A stretch of DNA of 64,000 nucleotides from Cymodocea nodosa. Taxonomy: Eukaryota; Streptophyta; Magnoliopsida; Alismatales; Cymodoceaceae. Position 1 is the first letter of the stretch, and each line of letters starts with the position of its first letter. Positions 9,452-55,677 of this stretch are shown here, piece after piece. Position numbers and translations under genes: made by a program. The notes below the pieces were generated by a model that saw nothing but the letters and a program-made list of their open reading frames with translations, did not search any database and was not told where the DNA came from. The stretch is from positions 1,118,501 to 1,182,500 of the forward strand of contig CM072347.1 of assembly GCA_036874045.1 (NCBI GenBank), given 5' to 3'.

Positions 9452-12407
9452 ATGAGTGCGATCGGAAAGGTACTCCCATTGCTCATCTGTGTTGCCCTTC
9501 TCTTGGCCAACAATGCAAGTGGTAGGCATCGTCACCTTGCAATAGAAAAAGAGGTATTAGATCTGAAGACCCAACTCGAATCCACAAGGAAGAATAGCAT
9601 CAAGACAATCAAGGTATTGTTTTCCTATTGTCCTTTTTTTTTTTTTTTTTTTTTAATTCCTGTGATGTTTTTATTTTGATATTTTTTTTAAGAAAATCCC
9701 CGACTTTTTAATTTATGGGGTGGAGGTATAAATATCAAAAGGAATACAAGTGGAGAGGACTAAACTAAAGTAGATTAGCTGCATTACATTTGGATTTAGT
9801 TCCAAGTTTTTCTTAATTTCTTAAAGATTCACATAATATGAAAGAATACTAAATATATATATGCTGTTGGTGTATTTGTTCTAGATATTGCTTTGGATGG
9901 GTACTTGATTAATCTGTGATGTTCTTTTGATGGATATTTAATTTTTGTGTCGTCATTAGAAGTTTTACCACTATTAAATGTTTTCTTTTACCGTTAGATC
10001 ACCTCACATCCATGCATGGAATTTTGTCATGTACAAGGGGTAAAACTCATAATGTGAGAGAATGATGGGAAATATTATTCTTGATGATGACATAAAAGAC
10101 ATTTTTACGATTTCGTTTTGCTTACACTTATTACATTTATATCCTCTTCGAAGAATGCTTTTGAAATCATTATTTTTTGAGATGTAATGCATGGATTCAT
10201 TCTACAGACTGCTAGCGGAGATGTGTACGACTGTGTTGACATCTACAAGCAACCGGCCTTTCTTCATCCAGAACTCAAGGACCATAAAGTGCAGGTTTAA
10301 GTTCACAAACAACTTCTTAATCAATTTTCTGGAGAAGTATCAGACGCATCATTAATTTATCACAACCATAGTTATATATACACGACATGCGTATTGATGA
10401 TCATGGTTGATTAATTGGTGAAGTATATATATCTCTATTGTTGTGATGCAGATGAAGCCGACGATCTTCCCAACAGGTCTGTCGACGGCCAATGATGGCA
10501 TCGAAGACGAGGTACAGTTCTCGTCGGAAGAGGTATGCCCTCAAGGGTCGGTGCCCATCCAAAGGCTCGACCTAGACATGTTGGCTAGAGACAAATTTGT
10601 GTTGGGCTCGAAGGCGATTAGCCCCCAAAAGGTCTACGAAGATGACTTCAGCAGATTCGTAAGTCTTCTCTAGCAATGGACATTGATTGTTGTAGTATAT
10701 ATACATTACAATTTTATTATATATGTGCATTTAGGAACATGGGGTTATAGACATTTAGGGTTAAACATGTTACGTGTTTATCGTACATTTAAAATGTTTT
10801 AAGTTAAAATATATTAATGATGAAGATTGTATATAAAATAAATAGATTTTTTTTTTTGTAAATGTTTATTTCAAATATGATTTTCATAGTTAACAGATTT
10901 TAAATTAATATACTAAACTATAAGATAAATTTGCATAGTATTTTTAATATGTAGTGAGTGTCTCCAACACAAATCTTCTAAATATATCTGTATATATGGG
11001 CACTTACAGACAAAAATTCTAAAATTACTTATATTATGGTTTGAATACATCAATTTAAAATCAATCAATGATAAGGATTGTATTTAAAACAAACAGATAT
11101 ATATATATAATTTCTTTGTAAATATTTATTTCTTTGAATTTAGAAGAGTTTCAACTCCAATGTGACATATTTCAGTGGGCGATAAGTACGACACATTCTT
11201 CCCAAGATGATGCATTCTACGGAGGTGGAGCAGCCATCAACTGTTATGCCATACCTAACGTTGGACCTCACGATAACAGCGCAGGCTTAATATGGATCAT
11301 GAACACTGACGTCGGCGCCGTTCTTAGGGCTGGCTGGCAGGTGGTTCTTCTTTACTCCATCAATCATGCATGCAACCTTGGATTAATCAATGTTGAAACC
11401 AGGAGAAATCTGCAAAGTGATGATATATATATGTATGTCTGTATGTGTGTATGATCCTGGTAATGTATGATTGTAGGTGAGACCTGGGTATTACAACGAC
11501 AACAAGACAAGGCTGTTCATTGAGTGGATAGTGAGCTCTTCTTTTCCAAACCATACTATTCAACAAAATGCGTGCATGATATATATATATATATATGTTT
11601 TACTGATTGATTAATTTGGTCTCTTGTATGTATTGATTATTGTTTCATGTATGATTGATCAGACAGGCAATGATAATACAGTGTGTGTGAACGATCAGTG
11701 TCCGGGATTTGTGGTGACGAATCCCACACCTATGCTAGGCTGGGCACTCACCCCTCTTTCAGTCTACCTGGGGCAACAATTTGTCACTAGGGTTTACATA
11801 TACATGGTTTGATTCTTCCTCAACCTGGCCTCCTTTACTTTTCGCTATCACGCACCTATTATTATTATTATATTGAAGAAATGAGACTGCATGTATGTAG
11901 TTAGAGTTGGAAATGATATAGAAACACATTAATTTAAGATTTATTAATTGATGAACTCTTGCTTTTATAACTACCGTTTTTGGCTCCTTAACTTTAATGC
12001 TGTTTTAATTTCATGCGTGGGTACGTACGTACGTGTAAAAGGACCCTGAAACAGGGAACTGGTGGTTCGCCGTGGGGAAGCGCCGGACGCCGGTAGGATA
12101 TTGGCCGAAGGCCATCTTCGACAACAAGTTCAACTACGCGAATCGGATAGACTGCGGCGGGTTCGTCTCCTGCGCTCCCAACAAGAGGTGCCCTCCCATG
12201 TGCAATGGCGTCTTCCCCGGCGCCAAGCGTGGAGGGTTCGACTGCGCATGCTTCGTCGAGGAGGTCCAGTTCTTCAACATGCGTGGCGTTGCTTTTAACA
12301 TCAGCAAAGTTGAGATGATGAGTCACGTCACCGATGCTGCCTTCTCCACCGTCGGCAATTTCCAGGACGACAGCCATGGCTTCACCTTTGGAGGACCTGG
12401 CTTTTGA
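9452..12407 (+). CDS. Neprosin-like secreted protein, gene B (7 exons)
   Basis: Exons: 9452-9613, 10208-10294, 10452-10658, 11176-11340, 11477-11530, 11663-11806, 12042-12407. All junctions are GT-AG and all introns phase 0; the protein is 394 aa. Residues 1-24 are a hydrophobic signal peptide (VLPLLICVALLLANNASG). Exon 2 (55-83) is the neprosin activation peptide (YDCVDIYKQPAFLHP). Exon 3 has CPQGSVPIQR, matching the family CP.GTVPIRR. The neprosin domain runs from about 153 to the C-terminal FTFGGPGF. Known neprosins are glutamic peptidases with one Glu in an 'IEVGW' motif and one in 'GGE'. Here these read VLRAGWQ (Arg203) and CGGFVSC (Phe314), so proteolysis is unlikely. The ATG was chosen because it opens the conserved signal peptide; further upstream in-frame sequence is poorly conserved. 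A secreted non-catalytic role is inferred. Confidence 0.9.
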
Positions 12408-12783: not shown

Positions 12784-13271
12784 ATATTATTTATTTATTT
12801 ATTATTATTTTTTTCCTCGTACATGTTAAATACTAGGAGTATCCATAAAAATAATAACATGTGAGTTTTAATGGACACTCAAACAGCTTGATATACACTA
12901 AGAATATCTAAGAAGTTGAAATCTTATAAGAGGCCTTGTTAGGCCTTAATATAGTAGATTTTTCCAAGTATCACATACTTTGTTTTGCATAGATTTCCAA
13001 CTAGTAAGGGGTATCCTAAGTGGCCTTATCCACCAACTTGGTTTGAGATTACTGACTAAGACAAAACTTGCAATATTGACATGTGGGTTGGGTAAGTGGT
13101 GCACATACTTATAGCTTGCTAATGTTTGAGAAGAACCAGCACTACTGTCCATAGGCACTACACAAGAACTTCTTAGGTGGTCATCCATCCTGGTTCTACT
13201 CCTGCTCAAACACAATTAACTCCAAAATTCTTACAGGAGTGATTACTTGATAGTAAGTGTAAATGCACCTT
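12784..13271 (-). mobile_element. 5S-rRNA-derived insertion (Cassandra-type TRIM or 5S-SINE relic)
   Basis: This segment of about 488 bp is absent from the otherwise collinear DNA upstream of D (29631), where GACCTATATATCATTTAATTG is continuous. Short TATATAT stretches flank it. On the - strand, 13135-13225 reads GGAGTTAATTGTGTTTGAGC, then AGGATGGATGACC, then GAAGTTCTTGTG. This follows the 3' two thirds of plant 5S rRNA (GGAGTTAAGCGTGCTTGGGC, AGGATGGGTGACC, GAAGTCCTCGTG), including the internal Pol III promoter region. The left end (12784-12815) is TTATTTATTTATT-like, which would be an A-rich tail if the element is a - strand SINE. Cassandra elements, which carry 5S sequence in their LTRs, are the main alternative. 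No intact 5S gene is present. Confidence 0.65.
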
Positions 13272-15361
13272 ATATATCATTTAATTGATTGAAGCACCCT
13301 TTGCTGACCTAAAAGATGTGGAGCCCTTAGACGTTATCAATATCAAAACTTTTCCTTGGCACTTAAAAGAAAACTAATTTGGCATTTTTTTTGTAATGGC
13401 ATCAAACCCCTTTGGTGTGATATTATTCTTGGAAATAGTGGCATTAGCCCCATCTTAAACAAAAAAATGCAAAAGCTTTCTCAAATTGGAGTATTATTAC
13501 TAACGTCTTTCTTAGCATTCTAACTTTTCTGCCTTTTAAGTGGTCAATGGCAATTCTACTTTATTTTAGGATTGTGTTTGATATCAAAGACTTAAGTTGA
13601 ATTATTTATTTTGATGTCTATTACATGCATTTGCTTGGAACAGAAAAATGAGAGTAACTTCGGCCTTGAATGTTTTTTTCGTAATAGTAGAAGCTTGTCT
13701 GTCTCCCTTACAGAACAAACCCACAATTCTTTTCTCAATTATGTCAGCTTCTATTTTCAGATGAAAATTACTTGAGATTCATTATAATGGAACTAATAAA
13801 TATTTCTCAATACTAAAAATATCGAAGAAAGGCTTCCATTTTGGTAGATCAAAATTTATACATTTGTCAGATACTCCTTAATTTGTTGGATTCCAAATAG
13901 ACACAGCAGAGACACTCTACTAAGTTCGAAATTTTTGATTTTCATTAAAAAAGAATTTTTGATACAAACTTTTAAATTTTATTCAAGTAATATAAAACTA
14001 TTTTGTAAATATAAAAAGCGTTGGCCACGAAAGGACAATGAATCGACCTTAAAATAGTCATCACGAGCTTGATTTTCCCCTAATTCACAACACACTGCAC
14101 TCCTCTTTCACCTCTCACATCTTCAATGGACAGTTGAAACTCATCATCTGAAGCCACAAATTGTTGCCCATGTCCCAATTCCATAATTCTTCCTTCACAT
14201 TTAAAATTAAAAGTAACATAAAAAGTCAATAGTATTTGACAAATCCTGTTGTTGATGTGCATTTTGGCATGGGTTTCACTTGCATTAATTCTTAATTCAA
14301 CAATTAAATTTTCCAATCAATAGCGTTTTTTTTCGTAATTGAACATGATGCACATAATTGTATATGCGAAATATATTTTACATCCATAAATACTTTCTAA
14401 TTCCATTGGCAACTAAAATTTCTATTTAAATTTAATTTATATAATGTTGAAAGACTAAAATATTTTAAATTGTTCAAATCATGTGAAATACTAGTAGTAT
14501 AGACAAGTGTTGGCCATGACAAAAGGGTTTTGTTGGAGATATTCAAGCACATTTGTAACAAATTAATTAATATTGCCAAGTCAAAAAGAAGTTGAGACTA
14601 TTATTCATGTAATTATGTCCATATCATCAATATTTTTAATAACAAAGTACATGTTTTTCTACTCATTCAGAAAGAAAATTGGTAATGGAGATATTTGTGG
14701 TGATGAAAACTTTGCAACGCATTCATGGGTGTTTTGAATTATCAAAGGTAGACAATAAATGACAGCATGGCTAACATTTTGTAAATATACATTGAGAGAA
14801 ACAAATTATTTTACTTGTTCCAACTAAATCATAATAGATTATGGAGAAACTTGTGCGATTGTACAAATTTTGGTTCCTATAAAATATGAGAAGGAGAAGA
14901 CTAGGGCATCATTCTAACGTTGGTTGACTAATTCAAGCATATCTGTAACAAATTAATATTGCCAAGTAAAAAAGAAGTTAAGAATATTATGCATGTAATT
15001 CCATATCATCAATATTTTTAATATAATAATGCATGTTGTTCTACTCATTGGAAAAGAAAATTGCTAATTAATGGAGATATTTGTGGAGATGTAAAATTTG
15101 CAACTCATTTATGGGTTTTTTGAATTATCAAATGTATTATGTATACAAGAAATGACAACAAAGCCAATATGTTTTAAATATATACTGAGAGCAATGAATC
15201 GTTGTACCTGGTCAAACTAAATCATAAAAGATTGGTGGAGAAACTTTTGGGATATTAATAAATTTTGGTTCCTATAAAATATGAGGAAGGGCAAGCCGGA
15301 AAATGCATCATTCTAAAGTTTGGTGAGTCAGTCATCTGTGGATTGTGTTGGAGATTCTAGG
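13272..15361 (+). promoter_or_regulatory. Upstream region of gene C with duplicated core promoter
   Basis: Collinear with 29632-31719 upstream of D. It includes a 154-bp segment (14017-14170) missing upstream of B and a 390-bp tandem repeat of the promoter. A first TATA box lies at 14878-14886 and is no longer followed by a coding exon. The functional one is TATAAAAT at 15273-15280, with TGAGTCA at 15324-15330 and the ATG at 15362. No protein-coding gene is credible within it. Confidence 0.65.
14541..15320 (+). repeat. 390-bp tandem duplication of the core promoter (gene C)
   Basis: Unit 1 begins at 14541 and unit 2 at 14931, both with ATTCAAGCA. Both contain AATATTGCCAAGT.AAAAAGAAG, TCCATATCATCAATATTTTT, GGAGATATTTGTGG and TTTTGGTTCCTATAAAAT. 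The first unit ends inside the leader (GACTAATTCA). The same structure with the same 390-bp period is found upstream of D (30900 and 31290), so it predates the C/D duplication. Confidence 0.8.
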
Positions 15362-18273
15362 ATGGGTGTGATCCGAAAGGTACTCCCATTGCTCATCTGT
15401 GTTGCCCTTCTCTTAGCCAACAGTGCGAGTGGAAGGCATCATCGCCTTGCAATCGAAAAAGAGGTAGTAGATCTGAAGATCCAACTCGAATCCATAAGGA
15501 AGAATAGCATCAAGACAATCCAGGTATCGTTTGCTATTGTCCTAGTTCTTTTCGATGTTGGTATTGTTTTTACTTAGATGTTATTAAGAAAATCTCTGAT
15601 CTATTTATGCAATGGAGGTGTTAAGTATTAAAAGGAACACAAGTGAGGAAGTCTTTCTTTCTTAAAGATTCACATAATATGAAAGAAGACTAACTACACT
15701 ATATTTATATACACTTCTGTTAGCGCATTTGTTTTAGATGATTGCCTTGGATGAGTAATTGATGTTCTATATGTTATTTTGATGCATATTTTTTGGTGTC
15801 AACATCGGAAAATTTGAATGTTTTCTACTATTTTTTCTCCTTGCATTCCTGAAATTTTTTGTCTTAATTGTGTACAAGGTGTAAAATTCATATATATGAA
15901 GGAATAAAAGGAAATATTCTCGATGATGACTTCAAAAACAAACATTTTTGTGATTTCATTTTCTTCGCACCTATTAGATTTATATCCTCTTTGAAGATAG
16001 CTTTTGAAATTAAGCATTATTTTTGAGATGTATTTTATGGATTCATTCTACAGACTGCTGGTGGAGATGTGTACGACTGTGTTGACATCTACAAGCAACC
16101 AGCCTTTCTTCATCCAAAACTCAAGGACCATAAAGTGCAGGTTTAAGTTCACAGAGAACTGCTTAATCAATTGCTAGAGTAGTATCAGACACATCATTAA
16201 TTTATTAGAACCATATATATATATAGATGACATGCATATTGATGATCATGGTTGATTAATTAGTGAAGTATATATATCTCTATTGTTGTGATGCAGATGA
16301 AGCCGACGATCTTCCCAACAGGTCTGTCGACGACCGATGATGGCGTCGAAGACGAGGTACAATTCTCGTCGGAAGAGGTATGCCCTCAAGGGACGGTGCC
16401 CATCCAAAGGCTCGACCTAGACATGTTGGCTAGAGACAAATTTGTGTTGGGATCAAAAGCGACGAGTTCGCAAAAGGTCTTGCAAGATGACGTCAATGAA
16501 TTCGTATGTGTTCTCTCTAGCAATGAACACAGATTGTTGCAGTAGATATACATTAAATTTTTAGTATTTAAATATGTATTCGGGAACTTGTGGTTGTAGA
16601 CATCTTCAGTTAAAAATATTATATTTTTTCATTTTCAACTTAAAATCTATCAATAATAAAAATTGTATTTAAAATAAATTGAAATTATTTCTTTATATGC
16701 ATTTGTTTCAAATGTAATCTTCACAGTTAATAAAATTTTAATTAATATATTTAAACTATAAGATAAACATGCACACCATTTTTAGCTATGAAAGAGAGAG
16801 ACATTTGAAGTATTCATGTCATAGTTTAAATATATCAATTTAAAATTTATTAACGATGAAGATGACAATTTATTATGGTAAAAGCAGATGTAATTTCTTT
16901 GGAAATATTTATTTCAGATATAATATTCACCGTAAATAGACTTTAATTACAGTGATATATCTAAATTGTCTGATAACTCGGAGATATTCAACCGTATGTT
17001 GCAATCTGATATTTTAGTGGGCGGCAAGTATGACAGCACCTAAAAAAGATTTGAGGTTCTACGGAGGTGGTGTAGGCATCAACATTTATGCCATACCTGA
17101 TGTTGAGCCTGGCGGTAACAGCGCAGGGTTGATATGGCTCACCAAAGATGACGCCGGCGTGAATATTAGGGCTGGCTGGCAGGTGATTGATCTTATATTA
17201 CTCCATCAATCCGAATGCAACGTTGTATTAATCAATATTGAAGACAGAAGAAATCTGCATGGTGGTGTGTGTATATAGTATGTATTTATATGTGATCCTG
17301 GTGATGTGTTATCGTAGGTGAGACCTGGGTATTACAACGACACCAAGACAAGGCTTTTCATCCAGTGGTCGGTGAGCCCTTGCTTTCTTCTTCTTCTTCT
17401 CCAAACCATACTTTAACTTTTCAATTACGAAATACATGCATGATATATATATATATATATATATATGCTTTTTTGATTGATTGATTGGTTTGTTCTTGTA
17501 TATGTAATGATCATTTCATGCATGATCGATTAGGTGGACGACGATAATACAGTATGTTCGAACGCCGAGTGTCCGGGGTTTGTGTTGGTCAATCCTTCAC
17601 CTGTTCTTGGTTTGGCCATCATCCCCCTTTCAACCTACTTGGGGATACAATACGTTGCTAGGTTTTACATATACATGGTTTGATTCGTCCTCCATCTGAT
17701 CAGTAGCTTTACATTTCACTGCCACGCACCTATCATTATTGTTATTATTATCTTGGAGAAATGGAACTGCATGTATGTACTTAAACGGTTAGAAATGGTA
17801 CAGATAATATTAATTCTAAGATGAACCCTTGCTGTTATGACTACCATTGGTGTCGCCTTAACTTTAATGTTGTTTTAATTTCATGGGTACGTACGTACAT
17901 GTAAAAGGACCCCCATACAGGGGACTGGTGGTTCGCCGTGGGTAATCGTCGGCTTCTGGTGGGGTATTGGCCGAAGGAGATCTTCAACAACATGTTCAAC
18001 TACGCGAGAAAGATACAGTATGGGGGGTTCGTCTCCTGCGCGCCCGCCAAGAGGTGCCCTCCCATGTGCAACGGCGTCATCCCCGGCGCTATCCGCGACG
18101 GGATCAGCTGCTCATGCTTCGTCAGGGAGGTCCAGTACTACAACGAGATTGGCGATTTTTTTAACCACACCGGAGGTGACATGAACACAGTCGTGACCAA
18201 TCCCGCATTCGCTTCCGTCGGCAATTTCCGGGAAGGCATTCATGGCTTCAACTTTGGAGGACCTGGTTTTTGA
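15362..18273 (+). CDS. Neprosin-like secreted protein, gene C (7 exons)
   Basis: Exons: 15362-15523, 16054-16140, 16297-16503, 17018-17182, 17318-17371, 17534-17677, 17908-18273. All introns are phase 0 and the protein is 394 aa. A signal peptide (VLPLLICVALLLANSASG) is followed by the activation peptide in exon 2 (VYDCVDIYKQPAFLHPK) and the neprosin domain in exons 4-7. The first catalytic position reads VNIRAGWQ (Arg203) and the second YGGFVSCAPAKRCPP (Phe314), so neither expected Glu is present. The frame is intact and the splice sites are preserved. C is the closest relative of D. Relative to B and D, intron 1 lacks about 48 bp (a region equivalent to 32010-32058). The 3' flank is cut after about 43 bp by the nested retroelements starting at 18317, which may affect polyadenylation. 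A non-catalytic secreted role is inferred. Confidence 0.9.
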
Positions 18274-21116
18274 TCCATCGTTAATTAGCTAGAACTTTAT
18301 TTCTTACGGTTATTTGAACATTATACAAATTTATGTTTTTGTTTTTATTTTCAAATGTTATACTTTTGTTTTTTGACATTTGTAAAATTTTCTATTAAAG
18401 TTTATTGTTCGATCATGTGACTTGATATTTCACCGTACAAAATATATTTTAATGTTGTTTTTTCTTGTAAAATAAATTAAGAAGAAATGTCTATTGATAC
18501 CAAATGTCTTCGAGGACTAAATTTAATAAAAACATATTTCTTGTTATTTAAGAATAGTCTAACATTATTATTTATAATCTTATTATATGTAAGTACTATT
18601 AATTTATCATTAATTTCATACTTACTTTACTATTATTTATATTTATTTTATTTTAAGATGTATTATAACCAAGACCAAATCAATATTTATTAGATATGAA
18701 TTCATTTTGGTCATGTTCATATATTTTAGTAAGATTATACCAAGATTTTGTACTTAGTATTTAAATTTTTATTACATACAAAATCTTTTTCTTCGCAAGA
18801 ATTTTTAGATAAAGAACATGTAGAAATAACAATCGAACTATTTTCCTTATATTGAATTTCATGCTCAATTTTTTAAATTTCCTAATTACTACAAGTATTT
18901 GAGATTTTAGAAATATTAGTAATTGAATTTCCAAAATAAGAAACAAGATTTTAGAAACATTAATAATTGTGTCAAAAGTACAATTAGACAAATCACATTG
19001 AATTATATTATTAATGCATCATTCATCCCATGAAATTCCTACTTCTACATAGTTATTACATTGTTTTATAATAAAAGGAATTTTAGTATTTGATTTGCTT
19101 GAACTACAACTAATAAATCTTTTGTTGACTTGAGATTCAAGATATTTAGGATAATCAAATCTTAAGCCAAATTTATATAACACCCTAGGAGTACTAGTTA
19201 GTTTATCTAACTTAGTTTGACTCTTGTTTTCTTAGTTTTAGTTTTTCAACTTCTAACTCAATATCATTTATATTAATTCTTAGTTGTTCATTTTTAGATT
19301 CTATTTTTAATTTCTCAGCATTTATATTCTGTATTTGTTTATGTAAAACAGATTCATTAAATCTAAATTTATGCAAATTAGTAGCATGTTTTTCATTATA
19401 ATATTTAATTTTTTCTAAAGTTGTAGATAGGAAACAATTTTTTTCTTCCACAATGGACAAAGAATTTCTGATATTCTTATTTTCCAGTTTACAAAATTTA
19501 AGTTTATGCAATAATGCATTATAAGCATATAATAATTCAGCAAAGTCAAAATTTAAATGATTTTCAAAATCAGAAATTACCTCAAACTCATTTTCCATGA
19601 AGCACATGTTGGCAATATTTTCTAATGCTTGTTTTTCTTCTAAATGAGAGGATTTTGATGATGATTCCTCAGATTTAAACTCTTATGACGTACCATCCTA
19701 AGTGACTTTCAAAGCATTTTTCTTACAAAGTTTTTTTTTACTTTTTCGAAGCATTCTTCTTCTAATTTGTTTTACTTTGTTTTTCATTTTTCCTTATAGG
19801 CTAATCTGGAGAAAGATGTCTAGATTTTTTACAATTATAACATACATACTTTCTAGATGAAAAATCTTTTTCATTCAAAGATTTTGATATTGAGGGCTTT
19901 TCCTTTTTGTTCCTTTGTTGTCTCCTAGCTTTCCATGCTTTATTGAATTTTCTAGTCAATAAAATCAAGTCCTCATCAAATCAGTTCAAATATTAGAATT
20001 TGAATTAATTTCAAAGGTAATCTTTTTCTTCAATTTTAATTTATTATGACTTAGGAAATCCTTTAATTGAACTTCATAAGTAGTTAAATTTTTTATAAGT
20101 TTATTTATAGTATAAATATTTAAGTCCCGTGATTCCTCAATTGAAGTCACTTTCTGAGACCATTTAGAACTTATGGATTTGAGAATTTTTGTCACCAAGT
20201 CCTTCTGTTCAAAATTTTTTCCTAGGAATTTTAAAGAATTTATTTTATCTAGTAATCTAGAAAACATCTTAGAAATACTTTCATTATCATGCATCTTAAA
20301 GAGTTCATATTTATGAATTAACATATTAATCTTAGTTTCTTTAACTTGAGAATTACCTTCATAAGAAACTTCTAATGCATATCACACCTTATAAGTAGAT
20401 TTATATATTGACACTTTATTGAATTGTGAAAGGACCTTTGAATTTTGATAATATAAAAAACCTATGTGAGGAGCTTATGTGTTTCAACAGATACAGATGA
20501 AGAGTTAAAACAAATAGTAGTCAAACAGACTAGATGATTGCTACACAAGAAATCTAGAAGAAATCATTAAGTTGTAGGACAATCGGAAGGTTTCGCACCT
20601 AATCCAAGCATATCGAAAGGTTTTAGGTGAAATAGTCTGAAAGAAAAGGAATTTCGGAAGGTTTTAGGTGAAACAGTTGAAAGACAGAAAAAATGTTTCA
20701 TAAGGTTTCAAGTGAAATAATCTGAAGGGAAAAGAATTTCGGAAGGTTTCAAATAGTAAACTAAAACTAAGAAAATCTCACATGTAGAACTTAAAGTTTC
20801 ACGTGACAAGCAAAAAGGTAATTGTTCAAGAAGTTGGACACTTTCAGAAGGTTTTTCGGAAGGTTTCAAGTGAAACTATCCAAAAGACAAGTGTGTTTGG
20901 AAGGTTTCAAGTTAAATTGTCTAAAAGTTGAATTAAAACAATTGAATGACAAAAAGGAAGGTTTCAGGTGAAACTATTTGAAAGACAATTTTGCTTGGAA
21001 GATTTTCAAAAGATTTCAAATGAAACTATCCAAAAATGAAGTACTTTCGGAAGGTTTCATTTTAAGTAGTTTGGATTTAAAGAAACTTCATGTGATGAAT
21101 TTAAATATTTACGTGA

Positions 21117-23341
21117 TGTTTGGGTTTTTCCAGCACTACACTAGAAAAACTTGGATTTGTTACTTCTGTTTTTACTTAGTTTATTTATCTTTATGCCTAT
21201 TCTTTCTTTTAGAAGTAAACAAACAACCTTTAATACAATTTAGATATTAATTCCAATTTGTACTTTAACTGCAAGTGCATAGTGTCTATTGTTTCAGTGT
21301 GCAAGTATAGGTCGATCCCATAGGGAATTGCTGACGAACTTGAGAACTGTTTGCTTGTTAAAAATCAAATTTATATATTCAATAAGCACTCCGTTGAATT
21401 ATAGCTAACTCAACAGACTAAGTTCGTTGAGTTATGACTAACTCAACGGACTAACCTCGTGGACTTATGTTAACTCCACGAGCTTGACTTTTCTTTTTAA
21501 TACTGCTATTTACAGAGGAATTCAGACAACCATTGGGCGATTCCACAGATTGTAAATAACATCAATTAAGCTCTTTAATGTTAGTTAACATTGGATTTAT
21601 CATTAAGCAATACTAACATTCAAATAATTCAAACAGTAACCATTAAAATCTTTAAGTCTTTTGAACGAACCAATTTCAGTAAACTGTAATACTAAAATAA
21701 ACATAAAACAATCACAACACTGACAAAGATAACAGTAATCACGATACAACACAAACAATACAACACTCAAATACAACATACAAACATAGATAAATTGTTT
21801 TTGGTATTTTTGTTTTAATATGAACATGGAAATGGGCAAAAGGTGAAATGTAAATTAATCTCACTTGACAGTAAATACTTCCAACACTAATTGCAACGCG
21901 ATTACACCACTGAAAATTAAACCACTTACAATTCTGTCTCCTCTCCCTATAGAATTGCAAGTCCAGAATTGTAAGATGATCTCCTCTTCAGCATACAGGC
22001 ATCAACCTGAAGCCAAGGCTAAAAGCTTTATGATCTCCTGAAATATGAGTCAGTGCTTGGTGAAAATGGCTTCCCTTCCCGCGACACAATCACTCCTCAC
22101 AGTGGTTGTTAGGCACTGTGTTTGGCTCGGAATCGACCCGACATCAGGCAAGTATCCTCACAGACCTCCGATGGTTGGTGATGGTGATGATGATGGTTGG
22201 TGTGGTACTTCAGAGAATTGCGTCGCCGATCCTCCTCTGCACACACTGTCCATCCATCGATCACACACTTCTTCTTTTTTTCTTCTTTTCTTTTATATTT
22301 CTTCAGTAGTAACTGCTTCTGCTTGAATGGTTGGTTGGATTTCCTTCATTCATATCAATGGTGATGCTTTCTTCTCTCTACGTGATTGAATTCCTACGTG
22401 ATACGTGCAAACGTGATTTTTCTCTTCCAACTGTCTGTTTCTGCAACTGCTACAGTGGCATATTAGAAAATATAAAGAAATAAGCTGCTAACATAACACG
22501 TTACCCTAGTGTAATATTCATGTAACTCAACGCGTACAGTTATGCTAACTTAACAAGTTAAACATGTGCATCTCACGTGATATTCTAAAACATTTAAATT
22601 CAACACATGCATAAATTTAACTATCCGATGCTCAGGTGCATTTCAGATATTTATAAACTTAACTATCCGATGCTCAGATGCATTTCGGATAGTTACTAAT
22701 AACTCACCGATATATAACTTAAGTAAATCTACTAGATCTCAACACGTGTCAGCAGCAGTTTAATCATAAAATAATATTTCATAGAGTTACAGGTCTAACT
22801 CACCGAAAATCCACTTAAGTCACTTTCCCAGAACATGACACGTGTCCTTAGCTATTTTATACATAAAAAGAGATTTCGGAGAGTTACAGAGATAACTATC
22901 CGATGCCCAACTGCAATTTCAGATAGTTATAGATAACTCACCGAAAGTTCACTTAAGTCATTCATTATGGTTTCGACATGTGTACTTCAGGAAATAATAA
23001 AATATTCTCTCAAAACATAACTGTTTGACAATTTAAACATAACTATCCGATACATGTTCGGTCTGTTAAACATAACTGTCCGAATATGTTCGGTATGTTA
23101 AACATAACTGTCCAAAATATCAGAAAATTCAGATACTTAAGAATTTCACACCTTGCAACTTACCGACAGTTCATAAATGTACTAAATTAACATTAATTCC
23201 CCGAAATTAAGCAGATTCTTCAATTAAAGTGTATAACAGTGCAATTATAACATAATGGCTTAATTCTTATATGATAAGCTAAATATTATGTAATTAACCA
23301 TCATTTAACTGTTAATAATATGCACTTTTTCATTCTAAACA
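21117..23341. mobile_element. Solo-LTR-like element 1 (2225 bp)
   Basis: Begins TGTTTGGG and ends TTCTAAACA. It is flanked by CGTGA (21112-21116) and TGTGA (23342-23346), a 5-bp target duplication with one transition. It shares near-collinear sequence with the element at 23361-25315, for example GCACTACACTAGAAAAACTT and CAGTGTGCAAGTA.AGGTCGA. ORFs near 22045-22326 shift frame between the two copies and are not taken as genes. No primer site or retroelement coding is seen. Confidence 0.7.
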
Positions 23342-23360
23342 TGTGACAAGGATAGAAAGA

Positions 23361-25315
23361 TGTTTGTGTTTTCCCAGCACTACACTAGAAAAACTTGGAT
23401 TTGTTACTTCTATTTTTACTTAGTTAATTTATCTTTATGCCTATTCTTTCTTTTAGAAGTAAACAAACAACCTTTAATACAATTTAGATATTAATTCCAA
23501 TTTGTACTTTAACTGCAAGTGCACAGTGTCTATTGTATCAGTGTGCAAGTACAGGTCGATCCCATAGGGAATTGCTGACGAATTTAATAAATGTTTGATT
23601 GTGAATAATTCAAATTTATATTCCATAAGCACTCTGTTGAGTTACAGTTAACTCAACGGACAAAGTTCGTTGAGTTATGGCTAACTCAACGGACTATCCT
23701 CGTGGACTTAAGTTAACTCCACGAGCCTGTCTCTTCTTTATAATACTGCTATTTACAGAGGAATTCGGCCAACCATTGGACGATTCCACAGATTTTAAAT
23801 AACATCAATTAAGCTTTTTAATGCTAGTTAACATTGGATTTATCATTAAGCAATACTAACATTCAGATGATTCAAACAGTAACCATTAAAATCTTTAAGT
23901 TTTTTGTACGAACCAATTTCAGTAAACTGTAAAATTAAAACTAACATAAAACAATCATAAAACTGATACAAATAACATTAATCACGATACAACACAAACA
24001 ATACAACACTCAAATACAACATACAAATAAAGATAAATTATTTTTGGTATTTTTGTTTTGATGTGAACATGGAAATGGGCGAAAGGTGAAATGTAAAGTA
24101 ATCTCACTTGACAGTAAATACTTTCGACACTACTTGCAATGCGATTACACCATTGAAAATTAAACCACTTACAATTCTATCTCCTCTCCCTATAGAATCG
24201 CGAGTCCAGAATTGCAAGATGATCTCCTCTTTAGCATACAGGCATCAACCCGAAGCCAAGGCTAAAAGCTTTACGATCTACTGAAATATGAGTCGGCGCT
24301 TGGTGAAAATGTCTTCCCTTCCCGCGACGCGATCACTCCTCACAATGGTTGTCAGGCACTATGTTTGGCTCAGAATCGACCCGACATCAGGCAAGTATCC
24401 TCACAGACCTCCGATGATTGGTGATTATGGTGGTGATACGATGGTTGGTGTGATACTTCAGAGAATCGTCGATACTGTCTGCAGAAAGCTCGGTGCTCCT
24501 CCTCTGTATACACTGCCATCCATTGATCACTCCTTTTTTTCTTCTTTTCTTTTATATTTCTTCAGTAGTAACTGCTTCTGCTTGAATGGTCGGTTGGATT
24601 TCCTTCCTTCAGATCAACGGCGATGCTTCCTTCTTCATGTGCGATTGCATTCCTGCGTGATACGTGAAAACGTGGGTTTTCCTTCCAACCATATGTTCCT
24701 ACAAACGCTACAGTGGCATTTTAGAAAATAACTATAAAATACATGCAATAAAGAAATAAGCCGCTAACCTAACTCGTTACCTTAGTGTATATTCATGTAA
24801 CTCAACACGTGCAGTTATACTAACTTAACGAGTTAAACATGTGCATCTCATGTGATATTCTAAAGCATTTAAATTCAACACGTGCATAAAATACATGTAA
24901 TAAAGAAATAAGCTGCTAACCTAACGTGTTACCTTAGTGTATATTCATGTAACTCAACGTGTACAATTATGCTAACTTAACGAGTTATAACTTAAGTAAA
25001 TCTACCAGCTCTCGACACGTGTACATCTGGAAATAATAAAATATTCTCTTTAAACATAACTGTTTGGCAATTTAAATATAACTATTCGAAATATCAGGAA
25101 ATTCGGATACTTAAGAATTTCACAGCCTACAACTTACCGACAGTTCATAAATGTACTAAATTAACATTAATTCCCCAAAATTAAGCAGATTCTTCAATTA
25201 AAGCATATAACAGTGCAATTATAACATAATGGCTTAATTCTCATATGATAAGCTAAATATTATGCAATTAACCATCATTTAACCATTAATAATATGCACT
25301 TTTTCATTCTAAACA
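23361..25315. mobile_element. Solo-LTR-like element 2 (1955 bp)
   Basis: Begins TGTTTGTG and ends TTCTAAACA, with a perfect 5-bp target duplication AAAGA at 23356-23360 and 25316-25320. It has the same family and orientation as the element at 21117-23341 but is shorter, mainly from missing DNA in its right third. It carries the same repeated TAACTCAACG/TAACTTAACG motifs. Confidence 0.75.
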
Positions 25316-29427: not shown

Positions 29428-30899
29428 TATGTACCTTCTTCTAACGTTTGTAAGTAATCTAAACAAGAAGATGTTATTCTCTATTACGGGTAGATTAACT
29501 TTTATTAATTTTGCTTCATCCTCGATTCCTGTCTTCCACCTCTCATTCTTGCATCTACCTATCAGGCTTCCAAGGCCATTGATGAAATAAGAAAAAAAAT
29601 AAATTAGGGTTTCATCACAATGGTAGACCTATATATCATTTAATTGATTGAAGCACCCTTTGCTAACCTAAAAGATGTGGAGGCCTTGACGTTATCAATA
29701 TTAAAACTTTTCCTTGGCACTTAAAAGAAAACTAATTTGGCATTTTTTTTGCTAATGACATCAAACTCCTTTGGTGTGATATTATTATTGGAAATAGTGG
29801 CATTAGCCTCATGTTAAACAAAAAAAATGCCCAAGCTTTCTCAAATTGGAGTATTATTACTAACGTCTTGCTTATTTTTTCTAACTTTTGTACCTTTTAA
29901 GTGGGCAATGGTAATTCTACTTTATTTTAGGATTGTGTTTGGTATCAAAGACTTAAGTTGAATTATTTATTTTGATATCTATACATGCATTTGCTTGGAA
30001 CAGAAAAATGAGAGTAACTTCTGCTTTGAATTTTTTTTCGTAATAATAGAAGCTTGTCTGTCTCCCTTACAGAACAAACCCACAATTCTTTTCTCGATTA
30101 TGTCAGCTTCTATTTTCAGATGAAAATTACTTGTGATTCATTATAATGGAACTAATAAATATTTCTCAATACTAAAAATATCGAAGAAAGGCTTCCATTT
30201 CGGTAGATCAAAATTTATACATTTGTCAGATACTCCTTAATTTGTTGGATTCCAAATAGACACAGCAGAGACACTCTACTAAGTTCGAAATTTTTGATTT
30301 TCATTAAAAAAGAATTTTTGATACAAACTTTTAAATTTTATTCAAGTAATATAAAACTATTTTGTAAATATAAAAAGCGTTGGCCACGAAAGGACAATGA
30401 ATCGACCTTAAAATAGTCATCACGAGCTTGATTTTCCCCTAATTCACAACACACTGCACTCCTCCTTCACCTCTCACATCTTCAATGGACAGTTGAAACT
30501 CATCATCTGAAGCCACAAATTGTTGCCCATGTCCCAATTCCATAATTCTTCCTTCACATTTAAAATTAAAAGTAACATAAAAAGTCAATAGTATTTGACA
30601 AATTCTGTTGTTGATGTGCATTTCGACATGGGTTCCACTTGCATTAATTCTTAATTCAACAATTAAATTTACCAATCAATAGCTTTTGTTTGCTTAATTG
30701 AACATGATGCACATAATTGCATATGTGAAATATATTTTACATCCATAACTGCTTTCTAATTCCATTGGCAACTAAAATTTCTATTTAAATTTAATTTATA
30801 TAATGTTCAACTACTAAAATATTTTAAATTGTTCAAATCATGTGGAATACTAGTAGTATAGGCAGGTATTGGTCATGGCAAAAGGGTTTTGTTGGAGAT

Positions 30900-31680: not shown

Positions 31681-31719
31681 GTGAGTCAGTCATCTGCGGA
31701 TTGTGTTGGAGATTCTAGG

Positions 31720-34719: not shown

Positions 34720-35108
34720 TCCATCATTGATTAGCTGCAACTTCATTTCTTTTGGTTATTTGCCTTTTCAACTACTACTACTTAGCTATCGTAAGATTTT
34801 TCTTCCGTATGTGTTTCTTGAAAGGCAGCCAAGGTTTCACCTTTGGATGATCTAGTTTTAAATTTTTAGCTACGTGCCATTTTTCATTTCCTATATTTAT
34901 ACCTTCTTCCAACATCTGAATAATATATATATAAGAAGTCGTTACCGTCATATATATATGTATGTAGAATAATGGGACTGCTGGCAGGTGAAGAAATTGA
35001 TCCGATTGTTATATATATATCTATACGTGCCCCATCTCTTCTGCCCCCCATCATCATCTTCTTCTTCCTCTGTTTTTCGCCTACATCTCGTCCGACGTAT
35101 ATAAACTA

Positions 35109-35148
<40 letters not shown>

Positions 35149-35560: not shown

Positions 35561-35569
35561 TCATTGGTG

Positions 35570-36569
35570 AAGTGATTTTGTTGTTGTTGTCCAAGAACAT
35601 AAGCAAGCTCCTTGTCTTTAACACACATAAATATTTTTAAAATATCATCTTTTAATATTGATTTTCTGTCCTCTAATATATTAACACTAATACTAAATAT
35701 TTATTCATATGCTACAGAAGAAGTTGAAATTGTTAGTAAATCTGTAGTTGGTAATGATAAAATAGAAAATGTCTTTTTGTGTTTTTACCAATGTATTATA
35801 TCAAAATCTAGAAAATTAGCATTATCTCTTATTAAATAACTATGATTAGTATTATTAAAATTAATTAATTCTTGCTTATTTGTTATGCTAAAATCACTAT
35901 AATCTTCAATAAATACACTATAATCAAATGGTGTTGATGATGATGATGGTTGTGTAAAATAGGATGTACTTTGTGTTTATTTTGCTCCATACTTTGTGTT
36001 ATTTAAATTATTTCTACATTTTCAATTGTTACATTAAGTTATACGTTTAAATAATTTTTTATTACATTTATTACTTTTTTAACAACTTTTATTTTAGTCC
36101 TAGGATCTAAACAAGCACTTAATGTATATAAGAGAGATATCATATTCCAATATTTTAAAAAATTTTCTTTCATTTTTAAAACTATAGGTGTAAAAAATAG
36201 ATAATTACCCTAATTATTAAAAACTTTTACAATATTATATAAATGATGGATTGTATAAACAGATGAATAATAATATATTCTTGATAAATGCTCTGTTGCA
36301 TTATAAAATAATTTAAAAAATTTAATAAAATAATTTACTATTGCAAAATCATTTTCATCTAGTGGTGTTGTACTATCATCTTTTCCACCATTATAATAAG
36401 TTTTTATAGCTTATTTATAAGGTAAACAATTATTTAACATTAAATATAATGAATTCCACCTATGAGGGACATTCATTGTAAATGTTTTATATGGTAAATC
36501 AAATGAATCACATACATCATTAAATTTTTGTTGTCGTCTATCACTAGCTAAAATGTAAGCTAATGTAGT
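35570..36569 (-). pseudogene. hAT transposase, C-terminal half (broken)
   Basis: On the - strand, 36569-36400 reads LAYILASDRRQQKF and then VPHRWNSLYLML, the conserved plant hAT 'RWNSTYLML' segment. 35940-35580 gives the dimerisation region: a WWK motif (IIHWWKHKKTF), SILSLPTTDLLTISTSS, SVNILEDRKS and a run of Gln at the end. In-frame stops interrupt it. It continues the N-terminal half at 47494-48489 once the Copia element is removed. Confidence 0.75.
36565..36569. repeat. Target site duplication GTAGT (left)
   Basis: GTAGT directly before the TGTAGG LTR start. It is identical to 47494-47498 after the ACTCAACA LTR end, which fixes both ends of the Copia element. Confidence 0.9.
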
Positions 36570-38320
36570 TGTAGGTTCGTATGGCTATACAACAGGGGGG
36601 TGAATTGTGTATTTTTAATATTTTTTGAAATATAATTGAAACTTTAAAACTCAAAAACAAGTCGAGACATTGTTTTCATAAAATCATTTTTATTCAAGGT
36701 TTCAATTACAATATACAATTCAATTCTCCTAAAAAATTGTACATGCAATTATATTTCGATACCATGTATCATCTAAACAATTTCATAACTACAAACATAG
36801 AAAACTAATTTGCGAAATTTAAAACATTTCTCCCTGTTTGAGATCTTTCTTCTTCTTTTTCTTTCTTCTTCAGCAATTCTTCAGTGATGAATATCTTGTC
36901 TTTCTCTGCTTCACCGAATTTGCTTTTACTTGATACTTCAAATCTTCAGCGACATAAATTTAACCTTTTCTACTTCACTGAATTTTCTTCCACTTGAGAG
37001 ATTTTGCCCAAAGAGGTGTTTTTGATCTCTGAAAAAGATTTTTCTTTTGGTGTGCAGGGATAGTTTGATCCTTGAAAAGATTTTCGTTTTGTGTGCAAGG
37101 ATAGTTTGATCAATGAGAATTCTATGCCTTTTATATTGTATGTTAACTTCATGCATATCCTCCACGTTTAATCACTACCAGTTTTCCACTTCTTCATGTC
37201 TTTGCTTTTTCCTTCATCGAAACACACACGTTCTAACCCACGTTTATATTTCGAATTTTCTTTAATCATCAGTCTTGGATCTCTGAAAAATTTCCTACAA
37301 AATAAACTTTTTCATCCAAAAGTTTTTCATTAGTGTAATAAGAAGTCGTTACTTTAATATTAACTAAACGAGTAACACAAGTATATATATATAACTTAAC
37401 ATTTCTAACTTAACGAGTTCCTCATGTGCCATTTCATGTGACAAGTACTGTAGCTAACTCAACAAACTAAGTTCGTGGTGTTATACTAACTCAACGAACC
37501 AGCTTAACCTTTATTTCGGAAGGTTAAATGATAACTCACCGAAAATAGTTTAAGTTTCAGATAGTTACGGATGTAAGTCATCAAAAAACTCTTTATATTA
37601 TAAAACTAGTGAGACACGTGTCAAGACCTGAAAACATGACTTAAGTTACCTTTCGGATAGTTACGATTGTAAGTCTCCAAAAAACTTTAACTCACCGATT
37701 CAGTAATAAACAAATGTTTTTATAATAAAAATTTTACCACATGTAAAAATAACAACTTAAGTTTATAACGCTAACCTAACGCATTGCCTTAGTATTCAAT
37801 ATAGCAACTCAACGCATTTAGTTATGTTAACTTAACGAGTTAAACATGTGCACCTCACGTGATACAATACAACATTTGGAACTTATAATTTCACCACGTG
37901 TATAACACTAACTTAACGAGTTCGTCTCTTCTTTTACTCACTAACTTAATGAGTTATTACGTGACCTATTTTAACCTTTAAGCCTCTAACTTAACGAGTT
38001 CTCACGTGACCTCTAAACAAACAAAACTCTAATTTAACGAGTTGTCTAAACGTGCACTGTTCATGATACATAAGATATAACTTTAAAACATATCATGTTT
38101 TTCAATAAAAACACACGTTAACTTAACGTTTAGCTAAATGAGAAATTAATGCAACGAAACGACTAGTTATTAGTTTCAGATCCAATAGAGACAAGTATTT
38201 ATATCAGTAAGCTTTTTATGTATAAATTGATGATTTTAATTTCTTTTCACAAGCAATAGTAATTGAGCAAATATGATTATTTTCATTCAGCACACATCAT
38301 CAAAACAAAAATACTCAACA
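36570..38320 (-). repeat. 3' LTR of the Copia element
   Basis: 1751 bp, TGTAGGTTCG to AATACTCAACA on the + strand. Near-identical in layout to 45743-47493. It contains many TAACTYAACGA and ACTCACCGAAA motifs. Confidence 0.9.
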
Positions 38321-45543: not shown

Positions 45544-45742
45544 CTTACCTTAGATTTTTCAATCTATTTGATTTTAAACAGTCTAAAACTTTAAAACAAC
45601 TTGAGCCTTAAATCAAGAAAGTTAAACGTATGCTCAGATATTAATGTCTGTTTAAAAACAGGGAAGACAGAATAAGCAATGATATTAAATAAGTTGGTAT
45701 CGATTTTATATCAAAGATTATTAACAAAGCTTTGATACCACT

Positions 45743-47493
45743 TGTAGGATCGTATGGCTACACAAGAGCGGGGTGAATTGTGTATTTTTAATATTTTCTG
45801 AAATATAATTGAAACTTTAAAACTCAAAAACAAGTCGAGACATTGTTTTCATAAAATCATTTTTATTCAAGGTTTCAATTACAATATACAATTCAATTCT
45901 CCTCAGAAATTGTAGATGCAATTATATTTCGATACCATGTATCATCTAAACAATTTCATAACTACAAACAGATAAAACTAATTTACGGAATTTAAAACAT
46001 TTCTCCCTGTTTGAGATCTTTCTTCTTCTTCTTCTTTCTTCTTTAGCAATTCTTCAGTGACGAATATCTTGTCTTTCTCTGCTTCACCGAATTTGCTTTC
46101 ACTTGATACTTCAAATCTTCAACGACATAAATTTAACCTTTTCTACTTCACTAAATTTTCTTCCACTTGAGAGATTTTGCTCGAAGAGGTGTTTTTGATC
46201 CTTGAAAAAGATTTTTCTTTTGGTGTGCAGGGATAGTTTGATCCTTGAAAAGATTTTCATTTTATGTGCAAGGATAGTTTGATCAACGAGAATTCTATGC
46301 CTTTTATATTGTATGTTAACTTCATGCATATCCTCCACGTTTAATTATTACCAGTTTTCCACTTCTTCACGTCTTTGCTTTTTCCTTCATCGAAACACAC
46401 ACGTTCTAACCCATGTTTATATTTTGAATTTTCTTTAATCATCAATCCTGGATCTCTGAAAAATTTCCTGCAAAATAAACTTTCTCGTCCAAAAATTTTT
46501 CATCAGTGTAATAAGAAGTCGTTACTTTAATATTAACTAAACGAGTAACACAAGTATATATATATAACTTAACGTTTCTAACTTGACGAGTTCCTCATAT
46601 GCCATTTCACGTGACAAGTACTGTAGCTAACTCAACGAACTAAGTCTGTGGTGTTATGCTAACTCAACGAACCAGCTTAACCTTTCTTTCAGAAGGTTAA
46701 ACGATAACTCACCGAAAACAGTTTAAGTTTCGGATAGTTACGGATGTAAGTCACCGAAAAACTCTTTATATTATAAAATTAGTGAGACACGTGTCAAGAC
46801 CTGAAAACATGACTTAAGTTACCTTTTAGATAGTTACGACTGTAAGTCTCCGAAAAACTTTAACTCATCGATTCAGTAATAAACAAATGTTTTTATAATA
46901 AGAATTTTACCACGTGCAAAAATAACAACTTAAGTTTATAACGCTAACCTAACGTGTTGCCTTAGTGTTCAATATAGCAACTCAATATGTTTGGTTATGT
47001 TAACTTAACGAGTTAAACATGTGCACCTCACGTGATACAATACAACATTCGTAACTTATAATTTCACCACGTGTATAACACTAACTTAACGAGTTCGTCT
47101 CTTCTTTTACTCACTAACTTAACGAGTTATCATGTGACCTATTTTAACCTTTGAGCCTCTAAATTAACGAGTTCTCACGTGACCTCTAAACAAACAAAAC
47201 TCTAATTTAACGAGTTGTCTAAACGTGCAATGTTCATGATACATAAGATATAACTTTAAAACATATCATACTTTTCAATAAAAACACACGTTAACTTAAC
47301 GTTTAGCTAAATGAGAAATTAATGCAACGAAATGACTAGTTATTAGCTTTAGATCCAATACAGACAAGTATTTATATCAGTAAGCTTTTTATGTATAAAT
47401 TGATGATTTTAATTTCTTTTCACAAGCAATAGTAATTGAGCAAATATGATTATTTTCATTCAGCACACATCATCAAAACAAAAATACTCAACA
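45743..47493 (-). repeat. 5' LTR of the Copia element
   Basis: 1751 bp, TGTAGGATCG to ACTCAACA, same length as the 3' LTR at 36570-38320. By eye the two differ at scattered positions, mostly transitions, so the insertion is not very recent. The outer flank is GTAGT. Confidence 0.9.
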
Positions 47494-49820: not shown

Positions 49821-49823
49821 TAA

Positions 49824-52240: not shown

Positions 52241-52244
52241 AAAC

Positions 52245-53026: not shown

Positions 53027-55677
53027 ATGGGTGTGATACGAAAGGTACTCCCATTGCTCATCTGTTTTGCCCTCCTCTTAGCCAACAATGCGAGTGGAAG
53101 GCATCATCGTCTTGCAATCGAAAAAGAGGTATCAGATCTGAAGACCCAACTCGAATCCATAAGGAAGAATAGCATCAAGACAATCCAGGTATTGTACTAT
53201 TGTCCTATTTTTTTGACGTCTGTAATGTTTTTATTTAGATTTTTTAAGGAAATCGCTGGTCTATTTACGTGATGGAGGTCTAAATATCAAAAGGAGTACA
53301 AGTGGGAGAACCAAACGAAAGAAGACCAACTGCACTAACCTTGCATTTAATTCCAAGTCTTACTTTCTTAAAGACTCACATATATAACATGAAAGAAGAC
53401 TAACTACACTACATATATATACATCTCTGTTGGTGTATTTGTTTTAGATGATATCCTTGGATGGGTAATTGATGTTCTATATGTTATTTTGATGCATATT
53501 TTTTGGTGTCATCATCGGAAAATTTGAAAATTTTCTACTATTTTTCTCCTTACATGCATGGAAATTTTTGTCTTAATTGTGTACAAGGTGTAAAATTCAT
53601 ACATACGAGGGAATAATAGGAAATATTGTTGATGATGACCTCAAAAACAGACATTTTTAAAATTTCATTTTTCTTGCACTTATTAGATTTATATCCTCCT
53701 GGAAGATTGCTTTTGAAAGTAAGCAGTAATTTTGAGATGTAATGCATGGATTCATTCTTCAGATTGCTGGTGGAGATGTGTATGACTGTGTTGACATCTA
53801 CAAGCAACCGGCCTTTCTTCATCCAAATCTCAAGGACCATGAAGTGCAGGTTTAAGTTCACGAACAACTGCTTAATCAATTGCCAGAGAAGTATCAGACA
53901 CGTCGTTTATTAATTCTCACAATACACAACAAATAATATTTTCCTTTTACCATGTATACATGACGTACATATTGACGATAATGGTTGATTTGTGAACCAT
54001 GTCTATTATTTTTGTGATGTAGATGAAGCCAACGATCTTCCCAACAGATCTATCGACGACCGATGATGGCATCGAAGACGAGGTACAATTCTCGTCGGAA
54101 GAGGAATGCCCTCAAGGGTCGGTGCCCATCCAAAGGCTCGACCTAGACAAGTTGGCTAGAGACAAATTTGTGTTGGGATCAAAAGTGATGAGTTCGCAAA
54201 AGCTCTTGGAAGATGGCGTCAATGAATTCGTAAGTGTTCTCTAGCCATGAAAATTGATTGTTGCAGTAGATATACAATACATTTCTACTATATATATATA
54301 TATATATATATAAACGAATTCGGAATGAAAATGAGGTTGCAGACATTTAAAGTTATATATATTATAGGTATTCATTTTACAGCTTAGATGTGTGAGCTTG
54401 TAAAATCTATTAATGGTAAAGATTATACTTAAAATAAATTGATATTACCTTTTTTAAAATATTTATTTTAAATATAATCTTTACATCGACCAATTTTAAT
54501 TATAATGATGCCGTGTTATATCTAACGCGTAAGATATTTTCAGTGGGCGATACATTCGGGAGAATGTTATGACCATGGTGCGTTGCTCTACGCCGGCGGC
54601 GGAGCAGCCATCAACACTTATGCCATACCTGACGTTGGGCCTCACGATAACACCGGAGCCATGATGTGCGTCACCAACCGCGAAATCGGCGCCATTCTTA
54701 AGGCTGGCTGGCGGGTGATTCGTCATAACTCCTTCAATTATCATGCAACCTTGGATTAATCATTATTGAAACCAGAAGAAATGTGCAAAGTGGTGATACA
54801 TATATATATGTATATATGATCCTGGTGATGTGTGATCGTAGGTGAGACCCGAGCATGCCGAGGATACCAAGACAAGGCTGTTCATCGAGTGGTCGGTGAG
54901 CCCTTACTTCTCAATTACGAATTACATGCATGATTTATATATGCTTTACTGATTGATTGGTTTGTTGTTATATACGTATTGATCATTATTTCCTGCGTGA
55001 TTGTTGATTAGAACGACAGCGATGTTACAATGTGTGCGGACGCCCAGTGTCCGGGATTTGTGTTGACCAATCCCAAACCTACCCTTGGCATGGCCCTCGC
55101 ACCCCTTTCTACCTACATGGGTCCACAATACGTTCTTAGGGTTTACATATACATGGTTTGGTTCTTCCTCTCACCTTTACTTTTCACTAGCACCATCGTT
55201 ATTATTATAGAAATAACGTTGAACTCTTGCTGTTATATATCACTACCATTTGTGGCTTAACTTAATGTTGTTTAATTTCATGCATGGGTACGTACGTACG
55301 TGTAAATAAAGGACCCCAAAACAGGGAACTGGTGGTTCGGCTTCGGGAAGCGCCAGACGCCGGTAGGGTATTGGCCGAAGGCCATCTTCAACGACACGTT
55401 CACCTACTCGAACCGGATAGATTACGGGGGATTAGTCTCCTGCCCGTCCCACGAGAGGTGCCCTCGGATGTGCAACGGTGTCCTGGCCGGCACCTTCCGC
55501 GGCGGGCTTTTCCGCTCATGCTTCGTCAGGGATGTCCAGTATTACAACAAGCGTGGCCAAGCTTTTTACTTCACCAAAGCTGAAACGATGAGTTACGTGA
55601 CCGATACCAACTTCTCTACCGTCAGCGAATTCAAGGACGACATTCATGGCTTCAACTTTGGAGGGCCTGGTTATTGA
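53027..55677 (+). CDS. Neprosin-like secreted protein, gene E (7 exons, most diverged)
   Basis: Exons: 53027-53188, 53763-53849, 54023-54229, 54544-54714, 54842-54895, 55012-55155, 55312-55677. All introns are phase 0 and the protein is 396 aa. The signal peptide is VLPLLICFALLLANNASG. Exon 2 gives IAGGDVYDCVDIYKQPAFLHP. Exon 4 is two codons longer than in other copies and rich in Gly (LYAGGGAAIN). The catalytic sites read AILKAGWR (Lys205) and YGGLVSCPSHERCPR (Leu316), so both Glu are absent but the substitutes differ from those in B to D. The last exon starts DPKTGNWWFGFGKRQTP and ends FNFGGPGY. Its sequence and introns (intron 3 only 314 bp) are the most diverged of the full copies, while the frame stays open. 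A distinct non-catalytic paralogue is inferred. Confidence 0.9.

Follow-up and report, generated by a model that had tools for sequence, protein, structure and literature searches.

A tandem array of neprosin-fold proteins lacking the catalytic dyad and diversifying in the former cleft in Cymodocea nodosa

What becomes of a protease family when every member of a tandem array has lost the residues that cut? The question is raised by a 64-kb window of Cymodocea nodosa DNA (G000:C21:1118501-1182500, the whole stretch analysed, within a 374.6-Mb genome), which carries genes related to neprosin, the glutamic prolyl endopeptidase of Nepenthes (PDB 7zu8/7zva/7zvb), and shares with it the Neprosin_AP and Neprosin domains. 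A sequence-only reading of part of this window had taken the paralogues for secreted pseudo-peptidases whose fold has been put to another use. Profile searches with PF03080 and PF14365 showed that the array is wider than the interval covered by that reading, with eight copies in total, Z and A to G, all in tandem and all on the C21 plus strand (C21:1106577-1201913). The window holds the final exon of copy A, copies B to E whole and the start of copy F (from 61982).

Results

According to the part of the neprosin paper available to us (PMC9343461), the catalytic pair of the enzyme is E188 and E297, and Q173 and W175 are likewise essential. We fixed these positions by the numbering of PDB chain 7zu8 (E188 within IEAGW, E297 within EWGGE) and assigned the residues of each copy to 188 and 297 by two separate alignments. 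Site 188 is Arg in five of the eight copies (Z, A, B, C and D) and Lys in three (E, F and G), while site 297 is Phe in four (A-D), Tyr in three (Z, F and G) and Leu in one (E). No copy therefore has an acid at either position, and the neprosin dyad is absent from the array. The codons and both alignments bore out the residues given by the sequence-only reading (Arg in B, C and D and Lys in E at the first site; Phe in A-D and Leu in E at the second), and alignment of the spliced proteins to neprosin numbering likewise placed no acid at either catalytic position. Q173 is replaced by Val, Leu or Met in all eight copies, so the Q173/W175 combination is missing too, although W175 is retained in seven (Cys in copy E). 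At the Y208 position six copies have Glu and two (A and C) Gln, and Y214 aligns to a gap. Motifs of the NWWF, VGYWP and GGPG type are shared with neprosin. Neither does the array have the Gln-Glu dyad of the eqolysins (G1; scytalidoglutamic peptidase, 2ifw/1s2b), as that dyad is described in the accessible part of the same paper (PMC9343461). Five neprosin-like database proteins (P0013, P0016, P0035, P0042 and P0118) combine Gln at 188 with Glu at 297 and thus appear, from their sequences, to be of the eqolysin dyad type.

The array proteins could still be enzymes, with another set of catalytic residues or with a carbohydrate specificity, the jelly-roll being common to GH16 glucanases and lectins. 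We regard this as very unlikely: the mature-domain acids common to the seven intact copies (182, 200, 215, 259, 331 and 348) all fall off the cleft positions named in the portion of PMC9343461 at hand, the Glu at 208 is not shared by A and C, and the glucanase matches reach only the level of the common fold.

Gene models, built by splice-aware alignment and comparison across all copies, have seven exons each, of near-identical length among copies, and all 48 introns (8 x 6) are GT-AG. The frame is open from ATG to TGA in seven of the eight copies, as the sequence-only reading had noted for those in its view; copy G has an internal stop. In a neutral simulation a mean of 0.115 of eight copies stayed stop-free, with a maximum of three in 2000 runs. 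All eight copies were matched exon by exon by Neprosin and Neprosin_AP in genome scans, and a preliminary model of copy B, in which the exon 3/4 junction was wrong, scored 162 bits against PF03080 (cut-off 22) and 72.6 bits against PF14365 (39.2). Both glutamates were kept in 120 of 120 matches listed to a canonical query (the best 120 of 2881); because of this, and because stop-free frames exceed the neutral simulation, loss of the dyad in the array is not a matter of chance.

The dN/dS comparison across copies that the earlier reading had proposed gave a value near 1 in exons 4-7, with a positively selected class of sites, and a constrained pro-peptide half. Across all 28 pairwise comparisons among the eight copies, mean nonsynonymous divergence divided by mean synonymous divergence (mean dN / mean dS) came to 0.44 in exons 1-3 and to 0.92 in exons 4-7. 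The main tests used the seven intact copies, with copy G excluded. For exons 4-7, M0 gave an omega of 0.948, M2a assigned 24% of sites to omega 3.7 (twice the log-likelihood difference, 2dl, 59.6 vs M1a), and M8 yielded a 2dl of 69.6 vs M7 and 60.0 vs M8a. For exons 1-3, 2dl was 5.4 (p 0.07) with seven copies and 3.5 (p 0.17) with eight, and the pro-peptide half had an omega of 0.53-0.57. Our own codon-model implementation was checked with 25 M1a simulations, where the largest value was 10.1, and with a further 25 that assigned blocks to conflicting trees, where it was 13.0. In 19 of 21 pairs, nonsynonymous divergence in exons 4-7 exceeded the divergence of introns 4-6, and silent sites exceeded introns on average too. 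In four sets of canonical paralogues with shared genes from the same genome, mature-domain omega was 0.081, 0.332, 0.134 and 0.085, and M2a was not significant in the mature domain of any of these overlapping sets. A pair of C13 genes that also lack the dyad had an omega of 1.26 in the mature domain and 0.92 in the pro-part. On residues and codon models, the array therefore combines a dead active site with sites, in the cleft or exposed, that are under positive selection.

The selected positions are enriched in the former cleft. Of the residues that the neprosin paper assigns to the cleft, 13 lie in the tested domain, and their mean posterior was 0.442, against 0.243 for the 232 mapped sites (permutation p 0.027); 30 sites had a posterior over 0.9. 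Within 167-177, the odd positions are variable except 167 and 175 and the even ones constant (p 0.004), and the part of the paper available (PMC9343461) names the odd residues 169-175 for the cleft. Positions 291, 293 and 297 are likewise variable, with constant even neighbours except 290, and strands are predicted at the 167-177 and 291-297 regions in a model of P0001, a Dioscorea protein without the dyad. That model predicts with high confidence the zymogen fold, with an all-beta pro-domain. The basic residue at 188 is constrained (posterior 0.02), and the seven intact copies all share four Cys columns that neprosin lacks (300, 310, 314 and 327).

This pattern bears on three other explanations. 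Under relaxed constraint, catalysis is gone, the copies drift towards pseudogenes and their variation is decay; a mature-domain omega near 1, the internal stop in copy G and a frameshift in a C13 relative are consistent with this, and an Arabidopsis table of pseudogene loci by domain has a DUF239 entry reading 34, 48 and 0.708, the last of these a ratio, with the columns unlabelled in the extract available (PMC3521719). However, an array of pseudogenes with broken frames and no constraint is not what we found: open frames far exceed the neutral mean, the introns keep their GT-AG boundaries, the pro-peptide half is constrained, an omega of 1 in the extra class is rejected when M8 is compared with M8a, and back-facing residues, cysteines and R/K188 are conserved while cleft-facing residues vary. 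Decay is thus a quite improbable account. Alternatively, these may be signals or ligands that the female gametophyte or the pollen tube secretes, with mating or conflict behind their diversity and the cleft incidental. In the accessible text of one study, RNA-seq of the Arabidopsis central cell shows enrichment of the DUF239 family as a whole beside DEFL and S1-self-incompatibility-like families (PMC3266888), and tandem growth, the four extra Cys columns and fast evolution fit such families; the enrichment of selection at cleft positions speaks against it, and we hold a role of this kind to be unlikely. A defence function, in which dead copies act as inhibitors or decoys that bind proline-rich substrates or attacker peptides and so shield or trap them, would agree with diversifying selection in the old substrate cleft and with the predicted retention of a zymogen-like fold. 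Against this stands one Arabidopsis DUF239 T-DNA (transfer DNA) line, which the available part of its report describes as lacking a nematode phenotype, although 3' transcript could still be amplified (PMC6430479); the odds seem to us to be against a defence function as well.

Is such a family rare? The sequence-only reading had called a whole tandem family that loses both glutamates and keeps the pro-peptide unusual, a claim that did not survive comparison with other plants. Among 128 plant proteins listed as matches to two queries lacking the dyad (one listing being the best 120 of 561), 58 had neither glutamate, 34 E188 only, 10 E297 only (44 without one of the two), 24 both and 2 a gap; these fractions depend on the query and are no census of plants, and 33 of 281 database proteins had been removed by length before glutamates were counted. 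Among the matches listed, Q173 was retained in 142 of 144 sequences with both glutamates vs 10 of 58 with neither, and because it is kept with the dyad and mostly gone without it, the sequences suggest a real loss of catalysis. A basic residue at 188 is rare elsewhere (3/128 among the matches listed). Going by their locus tags, proteins without the dyad lie close together in Dioscorea, Asparagus, Zingiber and Shorea. Among the titles and abstracts listed in searches of the open-licence PubMed Central (PMC) literature, with subscription papers and preprints outside their scope, none dealt with neprosins lacking the dyad.

Nor is retention of the pro-domain a paradox, since LOTR1 of Arabidopsis, which also keeps it, was found solely as a full-length apoplastic protein with the activation-peptide (AP) domain, in the part of that work available (PMC8794472). 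The same source gives LOTR1 and 42 other Arabidopsis HOLO proteins the same two domains, places eight homologues at consecutive chromosome 4 loci and, unlike our reading of the array, treats LOTR1 as a putative protease, with no mention of the glutamate pair in the part available (PMC8794472). The nearest database relatives among the matches listed are the Dioscorea zingiberensis proteins J5N97_027820, J5N97_027821 and J5N97_027823 (P0057, P0002 and P0001), which have close locus tags. Like the array, they lack Glu at 188 and 297 in the motifs compared, and Q173 is Leu in P0001 and P0002; unlike it, they have Ser at 188 (Thr in both GW motifs of P0057) and Leu, Thr or Val at 297, and the identity of P0001 is 37%.

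In the Cymodocea genome, 10 of the 24 neprosin gene models keep both glutamates, and a C13 cluster of three lacks the dyad like the eight C21 copies. A C4 gene (C4_5132; G000:C4:5130057-5132898) with E188 kept, Y297 and L173 is a single-loss relative of the array. The highly divergent C2_22750 (G000:C2:22750542-22752400), on a very long branch, keeps E188 but lacks both W175 and a Glu at 297. A tandem set on C9 (G000:C9:5941145-5963282) comprises three genes with both glutamates and one broken member; among the C9 models, one has its break at the first site. For a quick, unrooted tree, made with active-site columns excluded, we used 123 of 162 rows and left out C9_5963, P0020, P0021, P0048, the canonical matches except 13 hand-picked of 120, and database rows more than 72% identical to a kept row. 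On this tree the C21 and C13 copies form one set (Shimodaira-Hasegawa-like approximate likelihood ratio test, SH-aLRT, 100), joined by the C4 gene (97) and then by Dioscorea P0001 (92). The state with neither glutamate requires at least 10 changes, seven of them forced by starred branches, and dyad loss therefore recurred or was partly reversed. In the simplest history, E297 and the oxyanion residue Q173 would have been lost first, a state persisting in the C4 gene with its E188; E188 would later have become basic, being Arg or Lys throughout the C21 and C13 clusters (11 copies), and separately Ser in the Dioscorea relatives.

Gene structures and surrounding DNA

Within the window, all on the plus strand, copy A contributes exon 7 (117-479; Phe297 at 237-239), its exons 1-6 and Arg188 lying to the left (C21:1112498-1118385). 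Copy B (9452-12404, then TGA), with Neprosin_AP and Neprosin domains, has exons at 9452-9613, 10208-10294, 10452-10658, 11176-11340, 11477-11530, 11663-11806 and 12042-12404, with Arg at the E188 position (11326-11328) and Phe at the E297 position (12162-12164). Copy C (15362-18270) has exons at 15362-15523, 16054-16140, 16297-16503, 17018-17182, 17318-17371, 17534-17677 and 17908-18270, with R188 at 17168-17170 and F297 at 18028-18030. Those of copy D (31720-34716) are at 31720-31881, 32461-32547, 32706-32912, 33465-33629, 33772-33825, 33983-34126 and 34354-34716 (R188, 33615-33617; F297, 34474-34476), and those of copy E (53027-55674) at 53027-53188, 53763-53849, 54023-54229, 54544-54714, 54842-54895, 55012-55155 and 55312-55674 (K188, 54700-54702; L297, 55432-55434; Cys at W175). 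Exons 1-3 of copy F (61982-63160) lie at 61982-62143, 62694-62780 and 62954-63160; exons 4-7 continue to the right, to C21:1186283, and the copy has K188 and Y297.

Copies C and D arose by duplication of a block (13267-18316 / 29627-34762), in which the upstream part and exons 1-3 are 96-98% identical and the 3' half 91.8%; the higher 5' identity suggests homogenisation of the 5' half. Between these copies lies a direct duplication of 88.7% identity (21115-22615 / 23359-24890). Between D and E, direct repeats of 1752 bp with 95.3% identity (36569-38320 and 45742-47493) surround minus-strand copia-type gag and reverse-transcriptase fragments, and the whole looks like a long terminal repeat (LTR) retrotransposon.

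Discussion

Our results lead us to favour, with moderate confidence, the view that this tandem array is specific to its lineage and encodes secreted neprosin-fold proteins that are catalytically dead and most likely use the old cleft to bind an extracellular ligand that varies or evolves. Residue losses, open frames, the fold predicted for the Dioscorea relative and the selection pattern were computed; secretion, loss of activity, the binding role and the ligand are what we infer. Secretion is suggested by a signal-like N-terminus recognised by eye. The signal peptide, activation-peptide domain and beta-sandwich would be retained while residues of the former cleft and other stretches diversify. 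Binding without cutting would follow from the lost catalytic residues, the open frames, the predicted retention of the fold, the constrained basic residue and the diversifying cleft walls, and the ligand may be a target in defence or a signalling partner between pollen and ovule. The earlier proposal that the fold has been reused is supported, as far as a non-catalytic role goes, by open frames, the predicted zymogen fold of a relative and cleft diversification; the rarity claimed for the family is not.

Several points weigh against this interpretation. Numerous sites among the strongest fall within 139-147 and 338-369, stretches outside the cleft residues that the paper lists, so the cleft accounts for just part of the pattern; cleft-facing positions were assigned by homology and strand parity rather than coordinates, and the predicted fold is that of P0001 rather than of a window copy. 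In one canonical control set, that of the C9 genes, M2a was significant for the pro-part (2dl 23.9). Mean exon dS (0.264) exceeds intron divergence (0.179), which makes introns an imperfect yardstick. The C/D identities point to probable gene conversion in the 5' half, which can disturb site tests, although simulated conflict stays below the observed value. Finally, E188 is absent from Dioscorea (Ser in P0001) and the array but present in the C4 gene, which implies two losses or a regain.

Database names for this domain family, such as "protein neprosin-like" and "carboxyl-terminal peptidase", can mislead, because 102 of the 128 listed homologues of the dyad-less queries lack one or both glutamates. 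Judged from the sequences compared, loss of the dyad is common in plants, and the diversifying former cleft would be the specific addition that strengthens the case for reuse. At least one dead lineage shows strong diversifying selection in the old cleft, unlike canonical paralogues in the same genome, and the array offers a testable case of a secreted protease becoming a recognition protein. More tentatively, plants may repeatedly turn neprosin into secreted, non-cutting binding families that diversify in the cleft, with R/K188 as a fixed basic anchor, walls under positive selection, additional cysteines close to the rim and a pro-domain that stays conserved. If so, these families would constitute a repertoire of extracellular peptide-recognition proteins derived from a dead protease.

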